Shown here piece after piece: positions 6,407-6,732 of a stretch of DNA of 37,279 nt. A program made the translations under genes and the position numbers. The notes under the pieces were generated by a model. It made no database searches. It saw only the letters and a program-made list of their open reading frames with translations, and was not told the DNA's origin. The stretch's first letter is position 1; each line of letters starts with the position of its first letter. Where the stretch lies: positions 1 through 37,279 of the forward strand of contig WJJL01000017.1 in the NCBI GenBank assembly GCA_014729725.1, given 5' to 3'. The stretch comes from Candidatus Moraniibacteriota bacterium (GTDB taxonomy: Bacteria; Patescibacteriota; Minisyncoccia; CAIUEV01; JAHKAQ01).

Positions 6407-6582
6407 AAAAAAAGCTCGTCTCAAATATCCAGTTATTGAATATTCGGGACGAGCTTTGTTATGCCCGCGGTTCCACCCGCTTTCTCCAAAATTTCTTTAA
6501 ATGCTTGTCCTTTGCGGAATCTTATCTGCCGGATTTTGGAGCTCTTTAAAGTTTTATAAGAAAAGGCGCCAATCTCTTTTCC
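6407..6582 (-). ncRNA. T-box leader (transcription attenuation) of glyS, apparently with a very short Stem I
   Basis: Minus strand: antiterminator CGGG[TGGAACC]GCGGGC-ATAACAAA-GCTCGT-CCCG (6479-6445) and competing terminator AAAGCTCGTC...GACGAGCTTTTTTT (6457-6407). Upstream hairpin GGAAAAG-AGATTGGCGC-CTTTTCT (6582-6559) exposes GGC. Located directly upstream of glyS. Confidence 0.87.
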
Positions 6583-6589
6583 AATTTAG

Positions 6590-6617
6590 ATCATAGCAGA
6601 AGGAGGGGATTTGGCAA
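6590..6617 (-). promoter_or_regulatory. putative sigma70-type promoter of the glyS T-box leader
   Basis: Minus strand TTGCCA (6617-6612), 16-nt spacer, TATGAT (6595-6590); predicted start near G6582, at the base of the short Stem I. Confidence 0.55.
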
Positions 6618-6732
6618 GGGGATTATTTTAAGGCTTTTTTAATAATTTTTCCCGATTTGATCTTCAAGCTATCTTTGGATATAACCAAAAAATATACAAT
6701 AAAGATTTGGTTGAAACCAAATTTTTATTAGG

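Follow-up and report, generated by a model that had tools for sequence, protein, structure and literature searches.

A glyS T-box leader with a candidate one-hairpin decoding domain in Patescibacteria

Can a T-box riboswitch read its tRNA without the elbow-binding tip of Stem I and without Stem II? This question is raised by the leader of glyS in a stretch of 37,279 nucleotides (nt) from a Candidatus Moraniibacteriota bacterium (Patescibacteriota; GenBank assembly GCA_014729725.1, contig WJJL01000017.1, positions 1 to 37,279), hereafter the window, in which a T-box lies at positions 6586 to 6405 on the minus strand, 5' of the gene. The known T-boxes, classes I to IV, use an elbow-binding Stem I tip, Stem II, or both; the tip is found in classes I and II, whereas in class III, where Stem I is short, Stem II is required (PMC10482949). 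We consider it highly probable (about 0.88) that glyS is controlled by a tRNA-Gly-sensing, transcription-terminating T-box whose decoding domain has shrunk to one hairpin, and we conclude that this architecture is a new minimal one, without the elbow-binding Stem I tip and without Stem II. The initial annotation, made from the window's letters alone, had proposed a transcriptional glycine T-box of distinct minimal architecture, with its specifier in a hairpin loop, in a putative Patescibacteria genome, and a comparison of 28 glyS leaders now supports that proposal.

A T-box core below the Rfam cut-off

Searching the minus strand with the Rfam T-box model RF00230, as the initial annotation had suggested, gave a match at positions 6640 to 6442 (44 bits; E value, 1.7e-8) that does not reach the gathering score of 93 bits, which is a threshold of the model and not a biological feature. 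A Rfam search at the gathering threshold accordingly returned no match in the window, and the T-box is missed by standard annotation because its score falls short of the cut-off. Three T-boxes were detected by RF00230 in the window's genome, one each for aspS, glyS and a gene resembling trpE, with all three scores under the cut-off (except for glyS, the genes were named by eye from their translations). The antiterminator core and Stem III of the model have their likeness in the window, where the distal part of Stem I is without counterpart. In the leader, the UGGN antiterminator core precedes a terminator that cannot form together with it, and the RRRNG-Stem III-AA motif of T-boxes (PMC7778990) is present as AAGAG-CUCCAAAA...UUUUGGAG-AA. 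Since the core shows every T-box feature that could be tested, the element is a new variant within the known T-boxes and not a new kind of regulator. The specifier hairpin with its GGC, the complete antiterminator and the terminator that excludes it were all recovered where the initial annotation had drawn them (Table 1).

Regarding switching, the minimum free energy (MFE) state, which holds the terminator, was predicted at -50.6 kcal/mol, versus -39.4 kcal/mol with the antiterminator forced; in this folding model, the preference of ∼11 kcal/mol for the terminator without tRNA is consistent with a switch that would be OFF by default. The suggested fit of the UGGA bulge to a U73 tRNA-Gly was borne out, as tRNA-Gly(GCC) of the window's genome has U73 and the anticodon loop UUGCCAA. 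Given this anticodon loop, a five-base pairing is possible, with UUGGC of the hairpin loop complementary to GCCAA at tRNA positions 34 to 38, and it may take place. Among the tRNAs read in the window's genome, U73 is limited to those for Gly and Cys and to two for Thr; therefore, GGC together with UGGA selects tRNA-Gly(GCC).

The specifier hairpin in related leaders

Because single-sequence folding says little, relatives were used as the test. With RF00230, 16 of 95 related genomes and 55 of 289 from the class gave T-box matches, none scoring above the cut-off. Nine glyS leaders were used to build a covariance model (R1), which had matches in 37 of 388 class genomes and in 32 of 384 genomes across the phylum; these counts include other UGGA T-boxes such as those of thrS. 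The comparison set comprised 28 distinct glyS leaders (individual leaders carry L numbers) from 15 Patescibacteria families; ten downstream proteins and the window's own were identified as GlyS by hidden Markov model, and the remainder were recognized by sequence. Another open reading frame (ORF) or a longer gap separates the T-box from glyS in L205, L226 and L229; by eye, the intervening ORF is NUDIX-like in L205 and a likely membrane protein in L229. When named genomes were searched with GlyS, one leader of this kind was found, L121 of Nealsonbacteria, a Patescibacteria group lineage; it is identical to L198 of the window's class, which is itself identical over 3.1 kb to a Candidatus Nealsonbacteria contig. 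A second covariance model (R2), from which the window's family was left out, recovered the T-boxes of all five members of that family, that of the window with an E value of 9e-10.

A glycine codon occupies the hairpin loop in 28/28 leaders, with hairpin limits drawn by hand around the codon; it is GGC in 26 and GGA in two (L021 and L208), which is a synonymous swap. Shuffling the loops 20,000 times yielded a mean of 4.7 and a maximum of 12 leaders with GGC, versus the 26 observed, and an automatic scan placed the codon within a top-three hairpin loop in 22 of 26 correctly parsed leaders, failing in L204, L230, L232 and L233. The check on related leaders that had been proposed for covariation in the stem also came out in favor of the hairpin: double changes occurred in 6/7 pairs among eight leaders, a score reached by 0 of 500 shuffles, and the closing pairs of the 28 leaders were standard in 84/84 cases versus 59.4 with shuffled partners. 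Antiterminator helix A1 covaried in 3/4 pairs. Loop length was 6 nt (GUGGCU) at the shortest and 11 nt at the longest, with 10 nt in the window, whose loop AGAUUGGCGC was found again in L019 and in L204, the latter from a different family. The base 5' of the codon is U in 27 of the 28 loops (UU in 18); on the 3' side, U, G and A occur in 11, 9 and 8 leaders, respectively, with G in the window; firmicute glyS leaders (e.g., L077 and L084) have, by eye, GGCA with other preceding bases. Terminator-like hairpins with U-runs were detected in 26 of the 28 leaders, the two failures being L226, where the wrong T-box was taken, and L224.

Beyond glyS, the cognate codon was present in hairpin loops of 45 of 58 synthetase leaders versus 31.6 under permuted gene labels (P ≤ 5e-5), for a set that covered Asp/Asn, Gly, Ile, Thr, Ser, Pro and Trp synthetase genes labeled by eye from their N termini. 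Examples include UUAUCA for ileS, CUGACA for aspS, CAAACA for asnS and CUACCAA for thrS.

Table 1. Parts of the glyS leader and its gene in the window
Feature	Positions	Strand	Basis
glyS, dimeric glycine--tRNA ligase, 459 aa	4860..6239	-	profile match NF003211, 626 bits
Promoter-like site TTGCCA-N16-TATGAT, TG before second hexamer; predicted start ∼6583	6590..6617	-	sequence, promoter scan
Ultrashort Stem I: GGAAAAG / 10-nt loop AGAUUGGCGC / CUUUUCU, 7 bp	6559..6582	-	sequence, folding, covariation
Specifier GGC (Gly), UU on its 5' side	6568..6570	-	sequence; conservation in relatives
Single-stranded linker replacing Stem II, 3' end = purine run AAGAG (RRRNG) before Stem III	6542..6558	-	sequence
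Stem III CUCCAAAA...UUUUGGAG, long variable apical part, then AA	6484..6541	-	sequence, folding; shorter in relatives
Antiterminator: A1 CGGG/CCCG, bulge UGGAACC, A2 GCGGGC/GCUCGU, AUAACAAA between A2 strands	6445..6479	-	RF00230 match
UGGA, complementary to UCCA 3' end of U73 tRNAs	6472..6475	-	sequence
Intrinsic terminator, then U7; GCUCGUCCCG common to terminator and antiterminator	6407..6457	-	sequence, folding

Transcript start, Stem II and rival readings

The initial annotation had placed the transcript start at the base of the hairpin from the promoter-like site in the window, leaving no room for a canonical Stem I, and the relatives show the same arrangement. With starts predicted by a weighted promoter scan, the distance from start to bulge in the glyS leaders was 63 to 121 nt (median, 83 nt; the range leaves out L226, for which the wrong T-box was picked, and L224, for which no distance was computed), versus medians of 151 nt for aspS/asnS and 169 nt for ileS leaders. 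Because the predicted start lies so close to the bulge, a canonical Stem I of ∼100 nt has no room. Good sigma-70-type promoters stand directly 5' of the hairpin in most glyS leaders, many of them near consensus (e.g., TTGACA-17-TATAAT in L170), and the predicted start is usually within ∼25 nt of the hairpin. A start farther upstream together with a conventional Stem I, which the initial annotation had named as evidence to the contrary, was looked for in the relatives by the promoter scan, and none was seen. AGAGA in the hairpin was considered as a piece of the interdigitated double T-loop motif (IDTM) and rejected, as it occurs only where the loop starts with AGA, is absent from other families and has no partner motif.

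Stem II signatures were assessed by motif test, and neither the S-turn nor the F-box signature was seen in this role in the glyS leaders. Among leaders of the same class, the S-turn-like AGUAGA/G was present in 10/15 for ileS and 8/11 for aspS/asnS, the F-box-like CCCGUUA in 11/15 and 7/11, and both together in 7/15 and 5/11, respectively. The single AGUAGG match among the glyS leaders, in L232, adjoins the T-box directly on its 5' side. A kink-turn (K-turn) at the base of Stem I is not visible by eye in the window sequence; a K-turn-like base (GAUGA/GUUGA...GGAGC) is kept, again by eye, in L173, L201 and L223 to L225, and a seemingly different outer helix is found in L018, L022, L169 and L198.

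These leaders could be ordinary class III T-boxes with a short Stem I, their Stem II overlooked as diverged or differently supplied, which is the closest alternative but an unlikely one. That class is recognized by a short Stem I whose specifier sits in the apical loop (PMC10482949), and the K-turn-like bases just mentioned are class III-like; however, hairpin and Stem III of the window are separated by just 17 nt, which are AU-rich and predicted to be unpaired, and the paired Stem II signatures of aspS/asnS and ileS leaders are missing from those of glyS. Very unlikely, in our judgment, is a canonical long Stem I 5' of position 6590, with the GGC hairpin being a part of it or incidental and the promoter-like site there by chance. 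The one such site in the window is indeed about what chance gives (shuffles average 1.6), and more upstream sequence is present in L019 (∼48 nt extra) and L020, but the same geometry with good promoters recurs in most leaders, the hairpin shows covariation as a stem by itself, and the RF00230 cut-off was never reached in the 289 class genomes, whereas firmicute glyS leaders with a long Stem I score ∼59 to 110 bits (several of them also under the gathering score).

A decayed, non-functional T-box is less probable still: regulation is lost in reduced genomes and few class genomes carry such a leader (37/388 by R1), but the covariation, the synonymous GGC/GGA swap and the intact UGGA, terminator and promoter all speak for a working element. 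The chance that the specifier is instead the second GGC present in the window, at positions 6530 to 6528 in Stem III, with another role for the first hairpin, we put close to nil, and that triplet was rejected as specifier: it sits in the variable apical portion of Stem III, which is missing from relatives, and the first GGC is invariant across nine aligned leaders.

Several points weigh against a T-box with a one-hairpin decoding domain. The whole case is computational, and the window leader, taken without its terminator, shows no folding advantage over shuffled sequences (z, -0.39), with a hairpin of no unusual stability and a nascent MFE prediction in which a competing fold is slightly better than the one drawn. 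The 28/28 codon count is partly guided because the hairpin limits were hand-drawn. R2 misplaces the window's hairpin, probably due to the long Stem III, and also misses that of L020 (G002), which lies ∼150 nt from its T-box with no good promoter upstream. In L020, an extra strong hairpin, GGUUAGU...GCUGAUC, stands between the GGC hairpin and the T-box (∼1460 to 1620).

Mechanism, known classes and significance

In the mechanism that we propose for the one-hairpin T-box, GGC of the nascent leader would pair with the anticodon GCC of tRNA-Gly, possibly with UU extending the pairing to A37 and A38, and the short linker would let the tRNA 3' end reach the discriminator. With uncharged tRNA, UCCA-UGGA pairing would stabilize the antiterminator and glyS would be transcribed; with charged tRNA, UGGA would stay unpaired and the more stable terminator would form. 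Binding of the tRNA, sensing of its aminoacylation, readthrough and the part played by UU are inferences from sequence. We think it probable that the leaders represent a fifth T-box architecture, widespread in Patescibacteria, which would recruit its tRNA solely by the discriminator and by codon-anticodon pairing that reaches U-A37 and often also U-A38, without elbow clamp or Stem II and, in the window, without a K-turn.

Class II, the Bacillus subtilis glyQS type (PMC10482949), shares with the window element the amino acid glycine, the GGC specifier, a linker in place of Stem II, Stem III, the UGGA antiterminator and the terminator. Class II has a long Stem I with a distal IDTM, whereas the window element has one hairpin and no IDTM; unlike in class II, the base 3' of the codon is U in 11/28 leaders and the U before it is near invariant. 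Class III, known from Nocardia and Mycobacterium ileS, is alike in its short Stem I, apical-loop specifier and lack of an IDTM, but has a Stem II with an S-turn, a 5- or 6-nt loop and a mostly translational mode of action (PMC10482949), whereas the glyS leaders have no Stem II, loops of 6 to 11 nt and a terminator. The parallel to actinobacterial ultrashort ileS T-boxes in the initial annotation thus holds for the short Stem I and is only partial, because those T-boxes require the Stem II that is absent here. The glyS leaders are set apart from class III mainly by combining a short Stem I with the absence of Stem II, and less by the short Stem I itself. Nor is the architecture isolated, as it occurs in at least 15 Patescibacteria families, and same-class T-boxes for other amino acids also have an ultrashort Stem I.

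Other T-boxes of the class were noted alongside. In those of aspS, asnS and ileS (L001, L004, L011, L157, L165 and others), Stem II signatures accompany an ultrashort Stem I; several (e.g., L001 and L004) precede an intrinsic terminator, so that class III-like T-boxes in this class look transcriptional rather than translational. In the thrS leaders L016, L147, L161, L179, L191 and L221, ACC sits in the CUACCAA-type loop of an ultrashort hairpin and the AGUAGA S-turn motif is lacking; the middle region of these leaders may represent a further unusual design. Trp-type T-boxes (L003, L007 and L013; trpE-like and trpS) show a Stem I of intermediate length with UGG in an apparent side bulge, so different T-box architectures coexist within one genome. 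T-box-like leaders (GGAUGG[GA]ACCACG) also precede an uncharacterized protein of ∼306 aa in L005, L141 and L160, which starts MSYKKKKLPKSKFNQFKYRFGLIKLALL in L141.

No paper on T-boxes in candidate phyla was found in the open-licence literature. It is an open question whether any T-box works without a K-turn, and glycine T-boxes have been named as a plausible case (PMC7583486). The leaders described here are natural candidates, which make the points on elbow or Stem II contacts and on the K-turn testable with RNAs of ∼180 nt. Most descriptions of T-box regulation come from Gram-positive bacteria; the leaders indicate that it also extends through Patescibacteria, where it lies under the Rfam cut-off.
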